Of a DNA stretch of 43,431 nt, positions 3,803 through 43,431 are shown piece after piece; position 1 is the stretch's first letter; the number at the start of each line of letters is the position of its first letter. A program made the position numbers and the translations under genes. The stretch covers positions 1 through 43,431 of IMG/VR virus record IMGVR_UViG_3300036402_000050; one strand, given 5' to 3'. The notes below the pieces were generated by a model. It was not told the origin of the DNA. It made no database searches and worked only from the letters and a program-made list of their open reading frames with translations. This DNA comes from a virus.

Positions 3803-3971
3803 CCCGAAGGAGCCGCCGACGAACTGGATGGCGCTGGCACTCGCTGTGTTTCCGAACAGCCGCCCGTTGACTCGTGCGGAGCGAGCCGAGTTCGAGGCGG
3901 TCGTCTACCGCGAGACGACGCCGCTGGAGTTTGTGGACGATGCGCGCCCCCCTGCTCCGAGGGACCCGTGA
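3792..3971 (+). CDS. Very small phage protein
   Basis: This 59-residue ORF runs from ATG 3792, overlapping the previous gene by 11 bases, to a TGA that overlaps the next GTG. It shows a tryptophan/hydrophobic segment (NWMALALAVF) followed by an acidic helix (LTRAERAEFEAVVYRE) and a Pro/Arg tail. It is included because it fills an otherwise empty interval and is linked by overlaps on both sides. No function can be given. Confidence 0.5.
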   Translation: MAADPKEPPTNWMALALAVFPNSRPLTRAERAEFEAVVYRETTPLEFVDDARPPAPRDP

Positions 3972-4144
3972 GCCCTGCGCCGACGTGCGCCCGTCCAGCG
4001 TGCGGGAAGCCAGAGGGCCAGCACGTCCTCGGATACGCGGGCCAACGCTACTGCTACGACACGGCCGCGTACTGGGAGCTGCTCAAGCGTGGCGCCCCCG
4101 TGCGGCACACGGACACGTACCTGCCTCCCACGTGGTGCCCATGA
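3968..4144 (+). CDS. Very small CxxxC protein
   Basis: This 58-residue ORF begins at GTG 3968 in a GTGA overlap and ends in ATGA with the next gene, so it bridges two genes exactly. It reads with TCARPACGK at the N-terminus and a later QRYCYDTAAYWELLK helix, ending in Trp-Cys-Pro. The cysteine spacing resembles a treble-clef or ribbon fragment that could bind zinc. The perfect coupling on both sides supports a real gene. Function unknown. Confidence 0.6.
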   Translation: MSPAPTCARPACGKPEGQHVLGYAGQRYCYDTAAYWELLKRGAPVRHTDTYLPPTWCP

Positions 4145-4458
4145 GCCAGCCTGACCCGCTCTTTCTCGCGCTCGTCAAACGCGCCAAGCTACCCGAGCCT
4201 GTCGCGGAGTACCGCTTCGATCCGACGCGCCGCTGGCGAGCCGACTACGCCTGGCCTGAGCACAAGCTGGCGCTCGAGGTCGAAGGGGGTGTGTGGACCA
4301 ATGGCCGTCATACCAGAGGCGCCGGATTCCTGAACGACATGAGCAAGTACAACCGCCTCGCTTGTCTCGGATGGCGCTTGCTCCGTTGCACCCCGGCTGG
4401 CCTGCACGACTTGTGGACGATCACGCAACTGACCGAAGCGCTCGAACGCGCGGCTTGA
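4141..4458 (+). CDS. PD-(D/E)XK-type endonuclease (VSR/DUF559-like)
   Basis: This 105-residue protein has the hallmarks of a minimal restriction-endonuclease fold. A conserved pattern WRADYAW supplies the first acidic residue, and LALEVEGG follows with the E-x-E/K-type strand near residues 44-51. A later DMSKYNRLACLGWRLLRCT segment matches the N-x-x-x-x-GW-x-x-LR motif of VSR and DUF559 proteins. Phages use such nucleases for recombination or resolution of branched DNA and sometimes to attack host DNA. The ATG overlaps the preceding stop. Cleavage specificity is unknown. I am fairly sure of the fold, less of the role. Confidence 0.68.
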   Translation: MSQPDPLFLALVKRAKLPEPVAEYRFDPTRRWRADYAWPEHKLALEVEGGVWTNGRHTRGAGFLNDMSKYNRLACLGWRLLRCTPAGLHDLWTITQLTEALERAA

Positions 4459-5216: not shown

Positions 5217-5500
5217 CGGAGATCGTGCCGGCGCTGACGCCGGAAGAGTGGACAGAAGCGCGTAAGGTGCTGGAGGGCGGGACGTCCCTTGACGTGACCG
5301 CGTGGTTGTCGTTCGGACCAGACGCAAACCTGACGCGCCGCCAGCAGCATGCCACCGCCTCCCTCTGCCTCTACGGCCAGCCCTATGGCTTCACGCAGGA
5401 GGACGTAGAGTTGGTGCTGTACGGCGATGACGGGCCGGAGGACATGGCCGCGCGTCGCATACTCGCCGCGAAGCTCGCCGCCCTTCTCCCTCCACCGTAA
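5213..5500 (+). CDS. Small phage protein, unknown function
   Basis: This 95-residue acidic protein is the last gene before the late promoter. Its start (ATG 5213) overlaps the HTH gene stop. It begins with ALTPEEWTEARKVLEGG, a pattern often seen in small phage proteins. The middle (TRRQQHATASLCLYGQPYGFTQEDVELV) suggests a helical bundle. No catalytic pattern is visible. It is probably co-expressed with the GerE-type regulator. Function unknown. Confidence 0.65.
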   Translation: MTEIVPALTPEEWTEARKVLEGGTSLDVTAWLSFGPDANLTRRQQHATASLCLYGQPYGFTQEDVELVLYGDDGPEDMAARRILAAKLAALLPPP

Positions 5501-5510
5501 AACAGTCTCT

Positions 5511-5528
5511 GCCCGTACTATTGCGGGC
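5511..5528. promoter_or_regulatory. Inverted repeat GCCCG-N8-CGGGC upstream of late promoter
   Basis: A five-base inverted repeat with an eight-base spacer lies nine bases before the TTGACA box. The arms have the same sequence as those of the second palindrome at 5556-5576 but in the opposite arrangement. It could be a second operator, an activator site or a weak hairpin ending the upstream operon. No T-run follows. Confidence 0.4.
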
Positions 5529-5536
5529 GCGACCTC

Positions 5537-5569
5537 TTGACAAACTGAACGCATATTCGGGCCTATAAT
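5537..5569 (+). promoter_or_regulatory. Probable late promoter (TTGACA, 21-bp spacer, TATAAT)
   Basis: A perfect -35 (5537-5542) and a perfect -10 (5564-5569) are separated by 21 bases, longer than the usual 17. Such a long spacer usually needs an activator or DNA distortion, as in MerR-type promoters. The region is the only clear gap between the small-gene operon and the terminase genes. Transcription would begin near 5576 and read all late genes. Confidence 0.6.
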
Positions 5570-5576
5570 GCCCGAA
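5556..5576. promoter_or_regulatory. Palindrome TTCGGGC-N7-GCCCGAA around the -10 box
   Basis: A perfect seven-base inverted repeat encloses TATAAT exactly. A dimeric regulator bound here would cover the -10 element and the start site, which fits repression or tight regulation of the late operon. The repeat also includes the ATG of the first late ORF. Confidence 0.6.
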
Positions 5577-5834
5577 CTCTCATTGGATGAATGCCCCGAC
5601 TGCTCCGGCAGGTCGGGGCTTTGTCGTTCCTGCCAACGCCGCATCCTCCCGCAGCTCGCCGTCAATCTCGGCTGGCTCCGGCTGATGGGTGAGGCGCTGA
5701 TCGAACAGACGACCCGCCAGAACCGCCGCCTCGACTCGTCCCACCGTGCCGCGCTCGCGAAGGTGGAGCGACGGAAGGCCCGGAAGGCGCGCCGGCTCAA
5801 CACGATCACCTCAGTCGTCCGCGCCGCCGCGTGA
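5568..5834 (+). CDS. Small zinc-knuckle protein, first late gene
   Basis: This 88-residue protein has two cysteine pairs near the N-terminus (CPDCSG and LCRSC) that should bind one zinc ion, then a basic helical tail (KVERRKARKARRL). The ATG at 5568 forms the end of the -10 box, so a transcript from that promoter would start downstream of it. On such a transcript the likely start is TTG 5583, still before the cysteines. On read-through transcripts ATG 5568 could serve. Its position just before terS suggests a DNA-packaging accessory or late regulator. The stop overlaps GTG of terS. Confidence 0.6.
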   Translation: MPELSLDECPDCSGRSGLCRSCQRRILPQLAVNLGWLRLMGEALIEQTTRQNRRLDSSHRAALAKVERRKARKARRLNTITSVVRAAA

Positions 5835-6403
5835 GTCCCGCGAAGCGCTCGACTGTCGCGACAGCGAAGAAGAAAGGTGCCGCGAAACGCGGGAAAACAC
5901 CGGCTGCTCGTGACACGAAGGCGCCAGCGAAGATTGGCCGACCGACCGCGTACCGACCGGAATACGTCGGGCAAGTGACGAAGCTCGCCGCGCTGTGCGT
6001 CAGTGGGATCACCGACGCCGCGCTGGCTGCGTTCTTTGGCGTGACGGAGACGACCGTCAACAACTGGAAGCTCGCGCACCCTGCGTTTCTTGAGTCCCTA
6101 AAAGGGGCGAAGGACGATCTGGACGCCAAGGTGGAGCGCAGCCTGTTTGAGCGGGCCACCGGCTACGAGCACGCCGCGGTGAAGATCCTCACCGTTGCGC
6201 GGGGCGATAACCAGGGCTCAGACGTCGAAGAGGTCGCGTACATCGAGCGGTATCCGCCTGACACCACCGCGGCGATTTTCTGGCTCAAGAACCGCCAGCC
6301 GGACCGGTGGCGCGACAAGAGCGAAGTGGCGCACGGGCTCAGCTCACACCTCGCGCTGATGATGAGCGCCGCCGAGGAGCGACTTGCCCAGCGCGACGCT
6401 TGA
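5831..6403 (+). CDS. terS: Terminase small subunit
   Basis: This 190-residue protein has a very basic N-terminal tail (about 40 residues, Lys/Ala-rich). A helix-turn-helix follows (GITDAALAAFFGVTETTVNNW) near residues 58-78. The centre is helical (FLESLKGAKDDLDAKVERSLFERATGYEH). A region with IFWLKNRQPDRWRDK is a hallmark of phage small terminases that recognise the packaging site. It overlaps the large subunit by 20 bases. It binds phage DNA and hands it to the large subunit ATPase. GTG start in a GTGA overlap. Confidence 0.88.
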   Translation: MSPAKRSTVATAKKKGAAKRGKTPAARDTKAPAKIGRPTAYRPEYVGQVTKLAALCVSGITDAALAAFFGVTETTVNNWKLAHPAFLESLKGAKDDLDAKVERSLFERATGYEHAAVKILTVARGDNQGSDVEEVAYIERYPPDTTAAIFWLKNRQPDRWRDKSEVAHGLSSHLALMMSAAEERLAQRDA

Positions 6404-7874
6404 TCCGGCCGAGGTCGCGCTGATCGACCGCATGGCGTCCTTCCGGCATGACCCGCTCGGGCACGTCCTCTACGTCTACCCATGGGGCGTGAAAGGCACG
6501 GCGCTCGAGCACAAGACCGGGCCGAGGAAGTGGCAGGCGCGAAAGCTCAAACGCATCGGCGAGAAGCTGCGCGCCGGACGGAAGAGCGCCAATCAGGTCA
6601 TCCAAGAAGCGACCGTCTCAGGCCACGGCGTCGGCAAGTCCGCGCTGGTGGCGTTCCTCGTGAAGTGGGGACTGGACACGCTGCTCGATACGAAGTGCGT
6701 CGTCACGGCCAACACTGAGAAGCAGTTGCAGACGAAGACGTGGCCGGAAATCGCCAAGTGGCATTACCTGTCGCTGACGAAGCATTGGTTCACGTTCACT
6801 GCCACCTCGCTCTACTCGGTGGACCCGGAGCATGAGAAGACGTGGCGGGCCGACGCGATCCCGTGGAGCGAGAACAACACGGAAGCGTTCGCTGGCCTCC
6901 ACAACATCGGCCGGCGCATCATCGCGATCTTCGATGAAGCGTCCAAGATCGCGGACAAGGTGTGGGAAGTCACCGAAGGCGCGCTCACTGATCTCAAGAC
7001 CGAGATCATCTGGGCCGTGTTCGGCAACGGCACGCGGGCGACTGGCCGGTTCCGAGAGTGCTACCGGAAGTTCCGCCATCGCTGGGACGGCGAGCATATC
7101 GACTCGCGCGACGTCGAGGACACGAACAAGGAACTACTCGCGCAGTGGGTGGCGGACTACGGGGAAGAGTCTGACTTCGTGAAAGTGCGCGTGCTCGGCC
7201 AGTTCCCGAATGCGTCCATCAAGTCGCTGATCTCCGAGGCGGACGTGGATCCGGCCTATGGACGACACCTCCGCGACGAGCAGTACAACTGGGCGCCGAT
7301 CATCCTCTCGTGTGATCCGGCATGGGAAGGCGACGACATGCTCGTCATCGGACTCCGGCAAGGGCTGATGTTCAAGATCCTCGTCGAGATGCCGAAGAAC
7401 GACAACGACGTGTGGGTCGCGAACAAGCTGGCCCGGCTCGAGGACGAGCACCACGCGGACGCGGTGTTCATTGATGCGGGCTACGGCACCGGCATCAAGA
7501 GCGCGGGTGATGTGATGGGCCGGACGTGGACGCTCGTCTGGTTCGGGGAGAAGGCCGACGATCCCGGCTACGTGAACAAGCGATCTGAGATGTGGGGCGC
7601 GGGCATCAAGCCGTGGCTCAAGGCGGGAGGCGCGATCGAGAAACGGCCGCAACTCCGTGAAGATCTGCTGGGCCCGGAGACCGTCGCGCGTCTGGATGGC
7701 AAGATCCTCCTCGAGTCGAAGGACTCGATGAAGAAGCGCGGCATTCCCTCGCCGAACTATGGGGATGCGCTTGGGCTGACCTTCGCCCATCCCGTCATGA
7801 AGCGTGACAGTCAGCTCGTCGGCGCTGGTGGGCGGGGCATGGTGTCCGATTACGACCACCGGTTGAGCGCGTGA
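6384..7874 (+). CDS. terL: Terminase large subunit
   Basis: This 496-residue protein is the packaging motor. It has Walker A SGHGVGKS at residues 79-86, Walker B IIAIFDEAS with D184/E185, and a coupling motif FGNGTRATGRF near 213-223. The C-terminal RNase H-like nuclease carries metal residues D311 (SCDPAW), D364 (VFIDAG) and D461 (NYGDALGLT). The start is taken as TTG 6384, four bases after GAGGAG; the ATG at 6432 is the alternative. It cuts concatemers and pumps DNA into the prohead through the portal at 8669. All key residues are present. Confidence 0.95.
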   Translation: MPSATLDPAEVALIDRMASFRHDPLGHVLYVYPWGVKGTALEHKTGPRKWQARKLKRIGEKLRAGRKSANQVIQEATVSGHGVGKSALVAFLVKWGLDTLLDTKCVVTANTEKQLQTKTWPEIAKWHYLSLTKHWFTFTATSLYSVDPEHEKTWRADAIPWSENNTEAFAGLHNIGRRIIAIFDEASKIADKVWEVTEGALTDLKTEIIWAVFGNGTRATGRFRECYRKFRHRWDGEHIDSRDVEDTNKELLAQWVADYGEESDFVKVRVLGQFPNASIKSLISEADVDPAYGRHLRDEQYNWAPIILSCDPAWEGDDMLVIGLRQGLMFKILVEMPKNDNDVWVANKLARLEDEHHADAVFIDAGYGTGIKSAGDVMGRTWTLVWFGEKADDPGYVNKRSEMWGAGIKPWLKAGGAIEKRPQLREDLLGPETVARLDGKILLESKDSMKKRGIPSPNYGDALGLTFAHPVMKRDSQLVGAGGRGMVSDYDHRLSA

Positions 7875-33487: not shown

Positions 33488-33721
33488 ATGCTGTCTCCGT
33501 TCGCGCTCGATCAGATAGAACCCACAGGCGATGAACCCCCGTGCGACTGTGTTGTTTCCTATCCGCACAACACTGCCGATACGGTCGTTCTCGTGAGCTA
33601 CGACCGCTGCGGTGATGTCTACGAGGCAGTCCTTACGAAGTATTGGCGAGTGACAAAACGCCTCACGGAATTGATGCTCAGTCGCGCACGAGATGAGCGC
33701 CCTCCACTGAAGCTGATCTAG
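33488..33721 (+). CDS. Small gene convergent with the repressor
   Basis: This 77-residue protein starts at ATG 33488, nine bases after AGGGAG. It has an N-terminal Cys pair (PPCDCVVSY) and an alternating strand (ADTVVLVSYDRCG), then a basic helix (YWRVTKRLTELMLSR). Its TAG overlaps the repressor stop on the other strand (CTAG), so the two genes converge with no gap. With its own promoter it might be expressed in the lysogen or act against the repressor transcript. Function unknown. Confidence 0.55.
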   Translation: MLSPFALDQIEPTGDEPPCDCVVSYPHNTADTVVLVSYDRCGDVYEAVLTKYWRVTKRLTELMLSRARDERPPLKLI

Positions 33722-34119
33722 CTCTCTTTCGCTGCATTCTCTCCCCGCCCAGCGACGACAGTCCCAGGCTTCATCGGCATATAGCGCGGATCAGACGCCT
33801 TTATTGGATTGCCGCGCCGCGCTGCAATCCAATCCCAAAACAGCGTGGGCAGCGGCGCAACGCCCCCCTCCTGGCCCGAGAGCCACTCGAACGATACGCC
33901 CAGCGCCTTCGCCAGCGGCGCGAGTTCCCGATGACCGGGCGGGGTTTCGTCGCTCTCTTTCCATTTCGAAAACCACGACTGCGTGACGCCTGCGCGCTTC
34001 CATAGCGCAGTGTCGGAATCCTCGATGGCCACGTCCGTGAGCTGACGTATCCATCGCGCATACAAAAGCCGCTCCCAGTAGACCGCCGATGGTGCCAATG
34101 GCGGCTTTTTTATGCCCAC
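33718..34119 (-). CDS. XRE-family repressor (CI-like)
   Basis: This 133-residue protein is read leftward from GTG 34119, with AGGA eight bases upstream. It holds an XRE-type helix-turn-helix around residues 35-80: LWKRAGVTQSWFSKWKESDE with the later LAPLAKALGVSFEWLSGQEG. No peptidase S24 domain is present, so release would not use the usual RecA-driven self-cleavage. The divergent Cro-like gene and a palindromic operator lie next to it. The open frame extends upstream through the promoter, but this is not a sensible start. It should maintain lysogeny by blocking the promoter at 34130. Confidence 0.75.
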   Translation of the reverse strand: MGIKKPPLAPSAVYWERLLYARWIRQLTDVAIEDSDTALWKRAGVTQSWFSKWKESDETPPGHRELAPLAKALGVSFEWLSGQEGGVAPLPTLFWDWIAARRGNPIKASDPRYMPMKPGTVVAGRGENAAKES

Positions 34120-34129
34120 AACTCTATCC

Positions 34130-34158
34130 TTGACATATGCCGTCCGTGGTATTTTATT
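34130..34158 (+). promoter_or_regulatory. Early rightward promoter (PR-like)
   Basis: TTGACA at 34130-34135 is perfect. TTTATT at 34153-34158 stands 17 bases on and matches four of six -10 bases. Transcription would start near 34165 and enter the Cro-like gene and the whole early operon up to int. The repressor starts 11 bases to the left on the other strand. Confidence 0.6.
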
Positions 34159-34169
34159 ACGCTCGTAGT

Positions 34170-34195
34170 CGGGAAGTATTAGATAAATCTTCCCG
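34170..34195. promoter_or_regulatory. Palindromic operator between repressor and Cro-like genes
   Basis: CGGGAAG and CTTCCCG are perfect seven-base arms 12 bases apart, with three more inner pairs (TTA/TAA), making a 26-base dyad. It overlaps the start region of the rightward promoter and the likely -35 of the repressor promoter. A dimeric HTH protein bound here could control both directions. Confidence 0.6.
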
Positions 34196-34228
34196 AAACC
34201 TTCTGGCCTTCGACGGGAATCGCGAAAC

Positions 34229-34483
34229 ATGGGACTTTCGACCGCTGAGCGGAAGCACCTGATGCCATACGGGGCGCAGCGCGAGATCGCGCGGGAGAAG
34301 GGCGTCACGGAGGGCTACGTCTCCGAAGCGATGAACGACCTGCTTCGCCCGAAGACTGCGGAAGGAAAGAAGAGGTTGCGGGGAGTGCAGGTCGCGATTG
34401 CCCGGAAGCTGGGAACGACGGTGGATGAGGCGTTCCCGCAGGCGCATCAGGAGGGCTCGCCGTCACTGGCGCGAGCCTCCTGA
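34229..34483 (+). CDS. Cro-like DNA-binding protein
   Basis: This 84-residue protein is the first gene to the right of the operator. It shows a helix-turn-helix signature: YGAQREIAREKGVTEGYVSE (about residues 14-33) followed by a second helix with VQVAIARKLGTTVDEAF. It starts at ATG 34229 without a strong ribosome site. It is probably the lytic-side regulator that lowers repressor synthesis. Confidence 0.65.
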   Translation: MGLSTAERKHLMPYGAQREIAREKGVTEGYVSEAMNDLLRPKTAEGKKRLRGVQVAIARKLGTTVDEAFPQAHQEGSPSLARAS

Positions 34484-38437: not shown

Positions 38438-39205
38438 ATGACGCAAATAGCAGTGAGAGAGAAGCCGATTCCGTTCAGCGGGCCGATGGTGCGCGCGATT
38501 CTGGACGGCAAGAAGACGCAGACGCGGCGGGTCGTGAAGCCGCAGCCGAGTATCGCGCCCGACCTGCTGCCGACTCGCGCCGAAGACATGCTGCCCGATG
38601 GCAGCTCGAAGAAGTTCTGCTTCACGATCGAGCGCGTGCCGGGCGTGACGCGGTATCTCGGCGGCAACCAATTCGCGCGCGAGTTCTCGCCCTACGGCCA
38701 GCCCGGAGAGCGGCTGTGGGTGCGTGAGACGTGGCAGCTTCTCCACATGTACCGTGATTGGGCGACAGGACAGGTTGACGATTGGACCGCGTGGGAAGGC
38801 AAGGTCCCCAAGGTTCGCCCCCCGGGGTACGTCACGGCCTTTGCCGGCGAACCGGGGTGGGGCTCGGATCGAGAGGAGCGCGGGTTCGGCTGGCGTCCGT
38901 CGATCTTCATGCAGCGGTGGGCCTCGCGCCTCTCGCTGGACATCACCGCCGTCCGGGTGGAGCGCGTGCAGGACATCAGCGAAGCCGATGCAGTGGCGGA
39001 AGGGGTCTATGAGGCATTCGCGGACGAACGCGAGGAAGCCTTCAGCGTTGCCCCTCCGGGCGAGTCCAGTTTCCCGACGGCGCGGCAGTACTACGAGCGC
39101 CTGTGGGACTCGCTCAACGCAAAGCGCGGCCACTCCTGGGACAGCAATCCGTGGGTGTGGGTCATCGAGTTCGCCCGTGTTCCCGAGGCCCCGAGCGCCG
39201 CATGA
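38438..39205 (+). CDS. ASCH/PUA-like phage protein
   Basis: This 255-residue protein has the typical start REKPIPFSGPMVRAILDGKK with TQTRRVVKPQ, then LWVRETWQL, FMQRWASRLSLDITAVRVER and RLWDSLNAKRGHSWDSNPWV ending in WVWVIEFARV. This pattern is very widespread in phages and resembles the ASCH/PUA-like RNA- or nucleotide-binding fold. Its job is not known. It ends overlapping the excisionase-like gene. Confidence 0.7.
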   Translation: MTQIAVREKPIPFSGPMVRAILDGKKTQTRRVVKPQPSIAPDLLPTRAEDMLPDGSSKKFCFTIERVPGVTRYLGGNQFAREFSPYGQPGERLWVRETWQLLHMYRDWATGQVDDWTAWEGKVPKVRPPGYVTAFAGEPGWGSDREERGFGWRPSIFMQRWASRLSLDITAVRVERVQDISEADAVAEGVYEAFADEREEAFSVAPPGESSFPTARQYYERLWDSLNAKRGHSWDSNPWVWVIEFARVPEAPSAA

Positions 39206-39543
39206 GGGAATCCGTCATTGCCGCCATGCGCCAGCTCGCGGAAGGCTGGCAGCAGGAAGCATCTACCCGCCGACGCGTGACGAAGATCGATCCCGCCGCG
39301 GACACGATGGAGCGCGATGCCTCCGAGCTCCTCGCCGAGCTCGCGCGCGTCGAGCACTCCACCCGCTTGCTCACGGTCGACGAGTACGCGAAGGAGTTCC
39401 ACGCCGCGCCGACGTCCGTCCGTCGCTGGTGCCTCCGGGGCGAGCTCGCCGGCGCCGAGAAGAACGATGCTGGCGATTGGGAGATCCCCCGCTCGGCGCG
39501 CCGGCAGGCGCGGGTCGGGCGGCACCTGGACATGACCGGCTGA
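39202..39543 (+). CDS. xis: Excisionase-like HTH protein
   Basis: This 113-residue protein is coupled by ATGA to the gene before and by a one-base TGATG overlap to int. Its second half carries a winged HTH of the excisionase type: LLTVDEYAKEFHAAPTSVRR, then WCLRGELAGAEKNDAGDWEI. The first half is helical (AMRQLAEGWQQEASTRR). Small HTH proteins next to int usually steer the integrase toward excision. It is named xis by position and motif; not proven. Confidence 0.6.
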   Translation: MRESVIAAMRQLAEGWQQEASTRRRVTKIDPAADTMERDASELLAELARVEHSTRLLTVDEYAKEFHAAPTSVRRWCLRGELAGAEKNDAGDWEIPRSARRQARVGRHLDMTG

Positions 39544-40874
39544 TGGCCACGGCCCCCGGTGTCGTGGCGTGGACCCATGTCGAAGGCACCGGCGCGTCGC
39601 GCGTCGTGGTCTACGAGGACATGGCACGCGGCGGCATGCTCACGCTCCGCTGGTGGAATCCCGCGCGCAAGAACTGGCGGCGGAATGCGCTGGGGCGGAC
39701 GCTCGTGCGGGACCGCCGCGGTCGCCTCGAGGAGTCGTCGACCGCATGGGCCATCCAGGAGGCGCGGCGCAAGTCGGTGGCGCTGGGCGATGGGCTCGAC
39801 GAGCCGGCGCCTGGCGTCCCGGTGCGCGCCTTCACGGTCGGCCAGACGGAAGCGGCGATCACGGACGAGGAGACGGGGAAGTATCCGCACCCCTCGCCCA
39901 TGCGGGCCGAGCTCGTGCGCGCCCTCCGCGCCGCTGTGCAGGTCTGGGGAAGCGACACGCCCTGGCACGCGGTCGACGACGGCGCGTGGGTTCGACTGAT
40001 CCGCCGCCGGCTGGACGGCCTGCTCCGCCAGGGCAAGCAGGGCGTGCGGACGACGGAGATCACCGTTGCCCGCATTGCGACGGCGACGCGCTGGCTCCGC
40101 CGCAACAAGAAGATCGCCGCCGACGTCGGCCACGCCCCCGAGGATTGGAAGCAGGAGATCTTGACGTCGTGGCGCGGGCTCACCGGTGCGACGCGCGACC
40201 CGGTGCCCTTCCGCCCCCGGCACACGCTCGAGGAGCTCCGCCAACTGCTCGATAGCTGCTGGTTCGTGGATCCGCGACTCGGGCTGCTCGTGGCGATCGG
40301 TGCCGAGTATCGATTGGGCCAGATCGTCCGCGCGATGCGCTCCGACCTCGACGTCCAGGCGCGCACGTTCGTCGTCCACGGCCAGGGCAAGAAGGGGGGC
40401 GAGACGATCGACCTCACCGACGGCCAGATGCGCGCGGTGTTCACGGCCTTGGGCGGCTACCTCGATGACTGCGAGGACCGCTACCTCGCGGACGGCACGG
40501 ACTACCCGCTCTTTCCCTCTGGACGGCTCGTTCGCCGCGCGCAGTTGCCGGGGCACCGGCAGACGCGCGACACGGAGCGCCTCGGGCGGCGTCGGCGTGG
40601 GCGCGTCCATCTCACGACGACGTGGATCATCAGGAATTTCCATCTCGCCGAAGATGCCGCGGGGATCGACCGCGTCCGCCTCCGAGGCGCCTATGGCCTC
40701 CGCCGGCAGAACGTCGACGCGGCCAACGCGCGCGGGATCAGTCCGCAGGGCTTGCAGGCGACGGGCGGGTGGAGCTCGCCGAAGATTCCGAACGAAGTGT
40801 ATGCCGAACAGACCAACCGCCGGGGACGCGACGAAGCGAAGCGCGTCCGGGCACTCACGCGAGGGGAGTCATGA
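39543..40874 (+). CDS. int: Tyrosine recombinase (integrase)
   Basis: This 443-residue protein starts at ATG 39543, sharing one base with the previous stop; the upstream open frame is a shadow. The N-terminal 100 residues bind arm sites, 120-205 are the core-binding domain (TEITVARIATATRWLRR), and the catalytic domain follows. It has R257 in EYRLGQ, K283/K284 in GQGKKGG, R387 in AYGLRRQN, W410 in TGGWSS and the nucleophile Y420 in NEVYAE. The usual His before the second Arg is Tyr384, and the second His is Arg388. It points to the tRNA-Ser(GGA) gene, the likely attachment site. Confidence 0.87.
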   Translation: MATAPGVVAWTHVEGTGASRVVVYEDMARGGMLTLRWWNPARKNWRRNALGRTLVRDRRGRLEESSTAWAIQEARRKSVALGDGLDEPAPGVPVRAFTVGQTEAAITDEETGKYPHPSPMRAELVRALRAAVQVWGSDTPWHAVDDGAWVRLIRRRLDGLLRQGKQGVRTTEITVARIATATRWLRRNKKIAADVGHAPEDWKQEILTSWRGLTGATRDPVPFRPRHTLEELRQLLDSCWFVDPRLGLLVAIGAEYRLGQIVRAMRSDLDVQARTFVVHGQGKKGGETIDLTDGQMRAVFTALGGYLDDCEDRYLADGTDYPLFPSGRLVRRAQLPGHRQTRDTERLGRRRRGRVHLTTTWIIRNFHLAEDAAGIDRVRLRGAYGLRRQNVDAANARGISPQGLQATGGWSSPKIPNEVYAEQTNRRGRDEAKRVRALTRGES

Positions 40875-40967: not shown

Positions 40968-40975
40968 TCCATAGC

Positions 40976-41061
40976 GGATCGGGTGAGATTCGAACTCACG
41001 GTACGCTTTCACGTACACACACTTTCCAGGCGTGCGCCTTAAACCACTCGGCCACCGATCC
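40976..41061 (-). tRNA. tRNA-Ser (GGA anticodon)
   Basis: Read on the minus strand, this 86-base gene has acceptor arms GGATCGG/CCGATCC, a D arm with TGGCCGAGTGG, an anticodon loop CTGGAAA (GGA) on stem CACGC/GTGTG, a long variable arm typical of Ser tRNA (TACG...CGTA) and T arm GTGAG-TTCGAATC-CTCAC. CCA is not encoded. Its 3' end faces the prophage and is the likely att site. It decodes UCC and UCU. Confidence 0.96.
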
Positions 41062-41103
41062 AGCAATACCACGCGCGCCGCCGTTGTTGCGGCGTCAATA
41101 CCA

Positions 41104-41140
41104 AGCGCGCTGGCGGCGCGAACCGCCGATCCAGCGCGCT
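41104..41140. terminator. Strong hairpin between the two tRNA genes
   Basis: AGCGCGCTGG and CCAGCGCGCT form a perfect ten-base stem; inside, CGGCG/CGCCG adds five pairs with a CGAAC loop. It lies after the 3' end of tRNA-Ser(CGA) on the minus strand. A smaller stem (CGCCGC/GCGGCG at 41076-41094) comes next. It is likely a terminator or processing signal. Confidence 0.5.
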
Positions 41141-41163
41141 GCAGATTGTTCATGAATACCGAC

Positions 41164-41249
41164 GGACAGGGTGAGATTCGAACTCACGATACCCTTGCGG
41201 GTACGCCGGTTTTCGAGACCGGTGCTTTCAACCACTCAGCCACCTGTCC
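41164..41249 (-). tRNA. tRNA-Ser (CGA anticodon)
   Basis: This 86-base minus-strand gene has acceptor arms GGACAGG/CCTGTCC, D-arm TGGCTGAGTGG, anticodon stem CCGGT/ACCGG with loop CTCGAAA (CGA), a long variable arm TACCCGCAAGGGTA and T arm GTGAGTTCGAATCTCAC. It reads UCG. No CCA is encoded. It lies upstream of the GGA isoacceptor in the same direction, after tadA. Confidence 0.96.
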
Positions 41250-41278
41250 AGGTAACGATCATAGGACAGCCGGTGAAT

Positions 41279-41791
41279 TTAGGCCGGTGGCGAGTTGCTG
41301 TCAACGAACGGCCGCCCGCGGCGCGAGGCAAAAAACTCGCGCAGCAAAGCGCCCGCGTCCGCCGCACGGACGCCCGCCAAGACTTCCGGCCGATGGTTGA
41401 GACGCGGGTGGCGCAGCAGGTCTCCCACGGACCCCGCCATCCCCGCCTTGTCGTCCCACGCGCCGAACACGACGCGGTCGATCCGGGAGAGCACGAGCGC
41501 CCCCGCACACATCGCACAGGGCTCCAGCGTGACGTAGAGGGTGCACCCCTCCAGACGCCAGCTCCCCAACGCGGCGCTCGCCTCACGGATCGCGAGGGTC
41601 TCGGCATGCGCCGTGGGATCCTGATCGCGCAGCGTGCGGTTGTGCGCATGCGCGATCAGTTGCCCGTCCCGCACGATCACCGCACCGACCGGCACCTCGC
41701 CCGCCTCCTCCGCGAGCTGCGCCTCGGCAAGGGCCAGACGCATCCACCCCTCGTCGTCGGCTCGGCGCGAGCCGCCCGGAGCGTCCTCCAC
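41279..41791 (-). CDS. tadA: tRNA-specific adenosine deaminase
   Basis: This 170-residue protein converts A34 to inosine in tRNA-Arg(ACG). The zinc site is visible as TAHAETLA (H, catalytic E) and PCAMC (two Cys). EVPVGAVIVRDGQLI and VVFGAWDDKAG are also typical. It is taken to start at GTG 41791, with GGAGG four bases before; the WMRLAL segment must be inside, as in E. coli TadA, so ATG 41743 would cut the fold. The GTG overlaps the clpB stop by one base (TAGTG), so tadA follows clpB in one operon. The longer open frame upstream overlaps clpB and is a shadow. Confidence 0.93.
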   Translation of the reverse strand: MEDAPGGSRRADDEGWMRLALAEAQLAEEAGEVPVGAVIVRDGQLIAHAHNRTLRDQDPTAHAETLAIREASAALGSWRLEGCTLYVTLEPCAMCAGALVLSRIDRVVFGAWDDKAGMAGSVGDLLRHPRLNHRPEVLAGVRAADAGALLREFFASRRGRPFVDSNSPPA

Positions 41792-43431
41792 TACACCTCC
41801 GCCGCGACGGGCGCGTCTACCCGCTCGAAGGCGAGCGACTGCCCGGCGCCGGGCGTCACGATGATCGTGTCGCCTTCCTTGAAATCGCCTTCGAGCAAGC
41901 GCATCGCGAGCGGATTCTGGATCAGCCGCTGAATCGCGCGTTTGAGCGGGCGCGCGCCGAAGGCCGGATCGAACCCCTCCTTCGCCAACAGGCGCTTCGC
42001 CTCGGGGGTGACCTCGAGGGTGAGCTTGCGATCGGCGAGGAGCTTGTCGAACCGCTTGAGCTGCAACTCCACGATGTGCTCGATCTGCTCCATGGCCAGC
42101 GGCCGGAAGACGATGATGTCGTCGACGCGGTTGAGGAACTCGGGCTTGAAGTGGCCCTGCAAGGTCCGAGAGACTTCCTTCTCCACCTCGTCCCAATCGC
42201 CGCCCGCATGCTCGAGGATGTAGTGGCTTCCGATGTTCGACGTCATGATGATGACGGAGTTCCGGAAGTCGACGGTGCGGCCCTGCGAGTCGGTGAGGCG
42301 CCCGTCGTCGAGGATCTGGAGCAGAATGTTGAAGACGTCGGGATGCGCCTTCTCGATCTCGTCGAACAGGATGACGGAATACGGCCGGCGACGCACGGCC
42401 TCCGTGAGCTGCCCGCCCTCCTCGTAGCCGACGTATCCCGGCGGCGCACCGATGAGCCGGGACACGGCGTGCTTCTCCATGTACTCGGACATGTCGATGC
42501 GGACCATCGCGTGCTCGTCGTCGAACAGGTATTCGGCGAGCGCGCGCGCGGTCTCGGTCTTCCCCACGCCGGTGGGCCCGAGAAAGATGAACGAGCCGAT
42601 GGGGCGATTGGGATCCTGGAGGCCGGCGCGCGAGCGGCGCACGGCATTGGCCACGGCTTCCACCGCCTCGTCCTGCCCGACGACGCGGCGCGCCAGCTCC
42701 TTGTCGAGCTTCGTCAACCGCTCACGCTCGCCCTCGAGCATGCGCGTCACGGGGATGCCGGTCCACTTCGCGACGACCTCCGCAATGTCCTCCGCGTCCA
42801 CCTCTTCCTTGAGAAACTGCGGACGTCCGCCGACGCTCGCGAGCTTCGACTCGGCCTCCTTCATCGCGCGCTCGAGCTCCGGGATCCGGCCGTAGCTGAT
42901 CTCCGCGGCCTTCGCGAGGTCGCCGGTGCGGGACGCCTTCTCCGCCTCCACGCGCGCCTGGTCGATCTGCTGCTTGATCTTGCCGACGGCGCCCAGGGTG
43001 TCCTTCTCCTGCTGCCACTGCGCTTTCATGGCCGAGGACTTCTCTTTCAGCTCGGCGAGCTCGCGCTCGATGATGTGGCGGCGCTCGGTGGAGGCCGCGT
43101 CCTTCTCTTTCTGCAGCGCCGTGCGCTCGATCTCGAGCTGCATGATGCGCCGCTCCACCTCGTCGATCTCCTGCGGCATGGAGCCGATCTCGATGCGCAG
43201 GCGCGACGCGGCCTCGTCGAGCAGATCGATGGCCTTGTCGGGGAGGAAGCGGTCGCCGATGTAGCGATGCGACAGCGTGGCGGCGGCGATCACGGCGCCG
43301 TCGGTGATGCGCACGCCGTGATGCGCCTCGTAGCGCTCCTTCAGCCCGCGGAGAATCGCGATGGTGTTCTCGACGCTCGGCTCGCCGACGTAGACCGGCT
43401 GGAAGCGCCGCTCGAGCGCGGCGTCCTTCTC
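41791..43431 (-). CDS. clpB: Chaperone ClpB, 3' part (5' end outside window)
   Basis: The 546 C-terminal residues of the disaggregase ClpB are present. They cover the end of the first AAA+ module ([39 protein letters not shown]), the coiled-coil middle domain (many Glu/Lys/Gln heptads), and the complete second AAA+ module. The latter has Walker [10 protein letters not shown], Walker [17 protein letters not shown], sensor-1 IIMTSNIGS and [10 protein letters not shown] at the end. It works with DnaK to rescue aggregated proteins. This is host DNA with standard codon use. Confidence 0.96.

Follow-up and report, generated by a model that had tools for sequence, protein, structure and literature searches.

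A candidate late promoter with a palindrome around its -10 hexamer and a terminator-like hairpin before terS in a probable epsilon15-like prophage

Introduction

What kind of control acts at the early/late border of a temperate phage when the only perfect -10 hexamer of its DNA is enclosed by a perfect palindrome a short way upstream of terS? The question is raised by an IMG/VR virus record of 43,431 nucleotides from an uncultured phage, which is taken in full and is called the window in this paper. An earlier note on this DNA had proposed a regulated late promoter that depends on an activator and may be a new late-gene switch. In this study, we propose, at slightly less than an even chance, that positions 5537-5628 are a prophage late promoter that a terminator close to it holds off, by analogy with lambda pR'/tR'.

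Results

Genome setting

The genes of 26-31751 point rightward, and the candidate promoter lies at the early/late border, with early and middle genes before it and terS, terL, portal and capsid genes after it (Table 1). Judged by their similarities, TerS, TerL, the head-to-tail connector and the GP7-type capsid protein mark a putative epsilon15-like podovirus, and the CI-like repressor, Gp157 and Erf/Rad52 genes mark the phage as presumably temperate. Two tRNA-Ser genes lie on the minus strand of 40974-43431, together with genes for a tadA-like deaminase and a ClpA-type ATPase. This right end looks like host DNA, so the window probably represents an excerpt of a prophage, and the 3' end of tRNA-Ser(GGA) is the suggested site of integration. 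A long plus-strand ORF (38724-40874) adjoins the presumed attachment site; it had no Pfam match, and its 443-aa part had no PHROG match. No integrase was recognised in the window.

The 72-aa HTH gene, which stands 0.3 kb upstream of the promoter, matches sigma-factor region-4-like models, and the search for homologues of its product returned HTH-level matches only, with no shared terS context among those examined. The protein is a candidate regulator of the promoter. Among the scanned upstream proteins, no member of the Q, AlpA or similar antiterminator families was found, and a diverged Q could escape such a scan because the Q families are mutually unrelated in sequence. The ORF at 3874-4458 was considered as a Q gene and rejected, its relatives being annotated as Vsr/DUF559-type endonucleases. 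For the 95-aa protein encoded ahead of the promoter, the confidence of the predicted structure was too low for use.

Table 1. Coordinates of the features around the candidate late promoter
Feature	Position	Strand	Remarks
LuxR/GerE-type (sigma-4-like) HTH protein, 72 aa	4998-5216	+	GerE, E=1.8e-13; phrog_3282 'sigma factor', 1.3e-9
Inverted repeat GCCCG-TACTATTG-CGGGC (GCCCG-N8-CGGGC)	5511-5528		about -65 to -48 relative to the predicted start
-35-like hexamer TTGACA	5537-5542	+	measured by script
Perfect palindrome TTCGGGC-CTATAAT-GCCCGAA	5556-5576		7-nt arms, 7-nt loop; about -20 to +1
-10-like hexamer TATAAT	5564-5569	+	predicted start near 5576
ORF, 88 aa	5568-5834	+	CxxC-x7-CxxC, then one long helix; stop overlaps terS GTG
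Terminator-like hairpin GCCCCGACTGCTCCGGCAGGTCGGGGC, then TTTGTCGTT	5593-5628 (hairpin 5593-5619)	+	stem about +18 to +44
TerS, first identifiable late gene	5831-6403	+	phrog_309, E=3.6e-49
TerL, epsilon15-like	6384-7874	+	phrog_2, 1.5e-28; 53-56% identity to Uetakevirus-type phages

Core promoter and palindrome

Between the stop codon at 5500 of the 95/105-aa gene and the terS GTG at 5831, the order is repeat, TTGACA, palindrome with TATAAT, and hairpin. The sequence was read again and measured by script, and the letters and coordinates given before for both repeats and both hexamers proved exact to the base. The -35/-10 spacer is 21 nt, which is outside the normal range, and TATAAT occurs once in the 43-kb window, both strands counted. 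The description of this site as the sole strong promoter-like block is right for perfect hexamers, whereas a standard scan with 16-18 nt spacing omits the block.

The window has a G+C content of 66% and contains 54 perfect inverted repeats (arms of at least 7, loops of 3-12), and repeats with arms of at least 5 occur about 0.8 times per 67 nt of its DNA. Because repeats are so frequent in this GC-rich window, each one alone means little. The chance expectation for GCCCG-N8-CGGGC is 0.44 per window, and the upstream repeat could possibly be an activator site or a product of chance. In 200 first-order Markov simulations of the window, TATAAT fell within an arm-7 repeat about 0.01 times per simulated window, and in none of these cases did TTGACA lie 14-22 nt upstream. 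Of all 34-mers in the window, the segment 5537-5570 belongs to the 0.2% with the highest A+T content. Taken together, the hexamers and the palindrome are well above chance, though the combination was picked post hoc. The three repeats of the region fold as three consecutive hairpins, and the structure of 5501-5640 reached a z of -4.4 against shuffles, yet it ranked only 9/310 among GC-adjusted window tiles, so the folding alone does not argue for a functional RNA. The only known RNA families in the window were two tRNAs.

The earlier note took the long spacer to need help from an activator. In a model of this kind, the palindromes would be bound by an activator, for instance the LuxR-type protein encoded upstream, which would offset the 21 bp. 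The 72-aa gene would supply such a protein, the upstream repeat lies at a usual position for activators, and MerR-type proteins activate long-spacer promoters. However, the upstream repeat is at chance level, and the main palindrome, from -20 to +1, overlaps the -10 needed for sigma binding and melting, so the model fits poorly: a protein on the palindrome would compete with both. MerR-type operators, moreover, sit between the hexamers of a 19-20 bp spacer, whereas the palindrome here is centred on the -10, and no MerR protein was seen among the upstream genes scanned. We consider activator dependence quite improbable.

Two models fit the position of the palindrome: it could be a repressor operator, or a site that comes into use once polymerase has escaped the promoter. 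Under the first model, the palindrome would be an operator over the -10 at which a CI/Cro-like phage repressor or a host repressor blocks the late promoter in lysogeny or early infection, and the hairpin would only end the early operon. For a steric block, a perfect palindrome with its centre at the -10 would be ideally placed, a CI-like repressor gene lies at 33718-34308, and the outer half-sites TCGGG...CCCGA recur in the repeat at 34169-34196 of the cI/cro gap, which makes a shared operator possible at the level of sequence. In this gap, the segment 34130-34196 carries TTGACA-17-TTTATT followed by TCGGGAAG-N12-CTTCCCGA. On the other hand, chance alone would give about 2.8 TCGGG...CCCGA pairs per window, the two repeats differ by 9 nt in spacing, and a repressed promoter would make the promoter-proximal terminator superfluous. 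To our knowledge, the late promoter of lambdoid phages is not directly repressed, which also counts against an operator. We regard the repressor as an unlikely explanation.

Downstream hairpin and overlapping ORF

Two features had been overlooked, a terminator-like hairpin and an 88-aa ORF. The hairpin begins 24 nt past the -10 and is stable, and its T-rich tail TTTGTCGTT has an interrupted T-tract. At the sequence level, a putative intrinsic terminator is thus present between the candidate promoter and the first late gene, and we propose that it may be a tR'-like terminator. The search for a -10-like pause element at +1 to +12 gave no strong match; by eye, AACTCT (5575-5580) keeps only A2 and T6.

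The 88-aa ORF has its ATG, at 5568, within TATAATG, and its last 4 nt overlap terS. This arrangement would suit a locus where the late promoter is absent, the hexamers and hairpins are incidental, and the ORF and late genes are read from an upstream promoter. The motif CxxC-x7-CxxC, which has just two instances in the six frames of the window, spans the hairpin in this ORF; the spacer of 21, the abundance of inverted repeats in the window, and the nearest TerS relatives examined (L028, L033, L035), which have no such promoter, favour the same explanation. Against it, codons 1 to about 20, which overlap the promoter and hairpin, score as non-coding, the predicted structure has low confidence over the first 20 residues (residues 20-87 form one helix), and the ATG has no Shine-Dalgarno sequence. 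The chance of TTGACA, TATAAT and the palindrome together is also very low, and the AT-rich stretch counts against this explanation as well. A search for homologues of the ORF found none. We believe that the absence of a late promoter is improbable; with the promoter in use at its predicted start, the ORF would have to begin at TTG 5583 or later.

Layout in related phages

The exact palindrome and the TATAAT-centred 19-mer were found in no other IMG/VR contig, among which was no close relative covering the region. The best TerL identity was 77%, in a contig that begins inside terL, and the others were at most 62%; the TerL relatives at 58-62% identity (L003-L008) have no such palindrome upstream of terL. 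There was no DNA similarity to the region in INPHARED.

In the TerL relatives, 8 intrinsic terminators were counted in the 27.3 kb that lie 0.4-1 kb upstream of terL and 39 in 540 kb elsewhere (2.9 vs 0.72 per 10 kb), with a Poisson p of 0.001, or 0.004 without the window, and 0.14 when only the four independent lineages are counted. In a separate TerS set, the 39.2 kb ahead of terS had 9 terminators and 517 kb elsewhere had 50 (2.3 vs 0.97 per 10 kb, p=0.016).

Similar promoter-terminator-terS layouts are present in other phages whose TerS or TerL is related. TTGACA-17-TATAAA is followed by a terminator 13 nt further in L012, L013 and L022, and in L154 (TerS 52% identity), TTGACA-19-TATAAT lies within CTGCGG-CTATATAATT-CCGCAG (N10), followed by a terminator and terS. 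Five phages (L015, L016, L018, L027 and L104) have TTGACA-N7-GTCATAAATGAATTAATGAC, a leader and a terminator, where GTCATAAATGAATTAATGAC is an exact 20-nt perfect inverted repeat that is invariant while the flanking DNA varies. In the four of them with this TerL, terS comes next after the terminator. In L104, the gene after the terminator looks different and is possibly an HNH protein rather than terS. Contigs with GTCATAAATGAATTAATGAC are also listed as L103, L104, L105, L106 and L027 (e.g. L027:2996-3015). By their letters, the inverted repeat thus encloses the predicted -10 in two lineages, L154 and the GTCATAAATGAATTAATGAC group. A 192-aa protein of unknown function (phrog_15385) is encoded at L018:4425-5003 and is apparently common to L018 and L027; standing upstream of a repeat-bearing late promoter, it is a candidate antiterminator.

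Epsilon15 and its relatives have a phrog_536 regulator gene, the palindrome GTGACATGTCAC, an annotated terminator and terS. Epsilon15 (Uetakevirus) resembles the window in its related TerL and in having GTGACATGTCAC and the terminator between a small regulator gene (gp49) and terS, but its palindrome differs in sequence and in position (near the -35 in our reading), and the upstream gene is another one; no gp49 relative was recognised in the window. In two epsilon15-like phages, LexA-box-like repeats (TACTGTTTAAATATACAGTA at L109:2540-2565, with a near copy at L110:1943-1970) stand ahead of a small gene, which is an insertion separating terS from the regulator gene. These repeats were judged to be a separate SOS insertion, and the small gene is possibly an SOS-controlled cargo gene.

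The association between repeats and terS promoters was counted on promoter-like sites of at least 10/12, with repeat arms of at least 5 enclosing the -10. Such a repeat was present at 7 of 13 sites upstream of terS vs 26 of 198 elsewhere (p=0.001), at 4 of 10 with related phages collapsed (p=0.04), and at 3 of 9 when the window was also left out (p=0.12). The link between -10-enclosing repeats and terS promoters is suggestive, and it is weak in the last of these counts.

The position directly upstream of terS would also suit a DNA-packaging site (cos or pac), and symmetric elements are common in cos sites. The deposited genomes of TerL relatives, however, begin at scattered points and so do not hint at a fixed end here, and a packaging site leaves the perfect -35 and -10 unexplained. 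We consider this explanation very improbable.

Discussion

The claim of a regulated late promoter before terS is supported by its early/late position, the perfect hexamers and the promoter-terminator-terS order in related phages. We infer its activity, start site, terminator strength, antitermination mechanism and regulator identity from sequence. In the mechanism that we propose, RNA polymerase would start near 5576, and as long as no phage regulator is active, the hairpin 5593-5619 would stop it after a transcript of about 45-50 nt. The regulator would use the palindrome that surrounds the -10 as its DNA site for loading onto polymerase just past the promoter, once the -10 DNA is double-stranded again, and the regulator-bound polymerase would continue beyond the hairpin into terS, terL and the genes for head and tail.

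Studies have shown that Q, AlpA and GafZ each bind a site inside the core promoter, from which the protein associates with polymerase and takes it beyond the downstream terminator (PMC6606751, PMC9371919, PMC7969949, PMC11150451). These precedents favour an antitermination-controlled late promoter. The QBE lies between the -35 and -10 with the terminator downstream, and that of phage 21, a direct repeat (TGAGCA), either stays upstream of the -10 or reaches it, extending to -13 (PMC6606751). The locus is like pR'-tR' of lambda and 21 in its early/late boundary, a proposed protein site embedded in the core promoter, a nearby putative intrinsic terminator and late genes beyond. A Q-type element is expected between the -35 and -10; here the palindrome instead encloses and overlaps the -10, the spacer is 21, and the scanned upstream proteins gave no Q family.

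In Pseudomonas aeruginosa, the ABE also lies between the -35 and -10, and the terminators of AlpA targets start at +26 and +54 (PMC7969949, PMC9371919). The window shares a proposed internal promoter site and a putative early intrinsic terminator, its stem starting at about +18, but the ABE (GGGACG-N5-GGTA) is non-palindromic, and an AlpA-like protein was not seen in the window. The GafZ site of the Caulobacter gene transfer agent (ZBE) lies between the -35 and -10; it is GC-rich, forms a near-perfect palindrome and is essential for binding (PMC11150451). It resembles our locus as a GC-rich core-promoter palindrome before a structural gene cluster, with a regulator that has a sigma-like HTH (PMC11150451). 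The differences are that the ZBE lies between the hexamers, its terminator is downstream of the first gene, and GafY and IHF are needed. The 72-aa HTH protein of the window has no domain able to form an exit-channel nozzle, and alone it is too small for an exit-channel ring. Further points against antitermination control are the 21-nt spacer, the interrupted T-tract, the lack of a clear pause element at +1 to +12, the weak association in the last repeat count and the occurrence of the exact palindrome in this record alone.

The novelty claimed for this switch is unproven, since its architecture is like that of the lambda/21 Q, AlpA and GafZ promoters, and on its sequence features the locus most likely represents a variation on pR'/tR', not a switch of a new kind. 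We also speculated on a class of late promoter common to epsilon15-like and TerS-related prophages, in which a repeat encloses the -10, a terminator adjoins it, and an as yet unrecognised family of small antiterminators loads at the re-annealed -10 and not at the spacer; this wider proposal is doubtful at present.

If the antitermination reading is right, the signature of a core-promoter inverted repeat, a near terminator and terS would find late switches in uncultured temperate phages. It would serve where antiterminators are too diverged to be recognised and would indicate where to look for the regulators of these phages. In the L015/L018 group, the invariant 20-nt repeat would make a particularly clean target in the search for an antiterminator of this kind.
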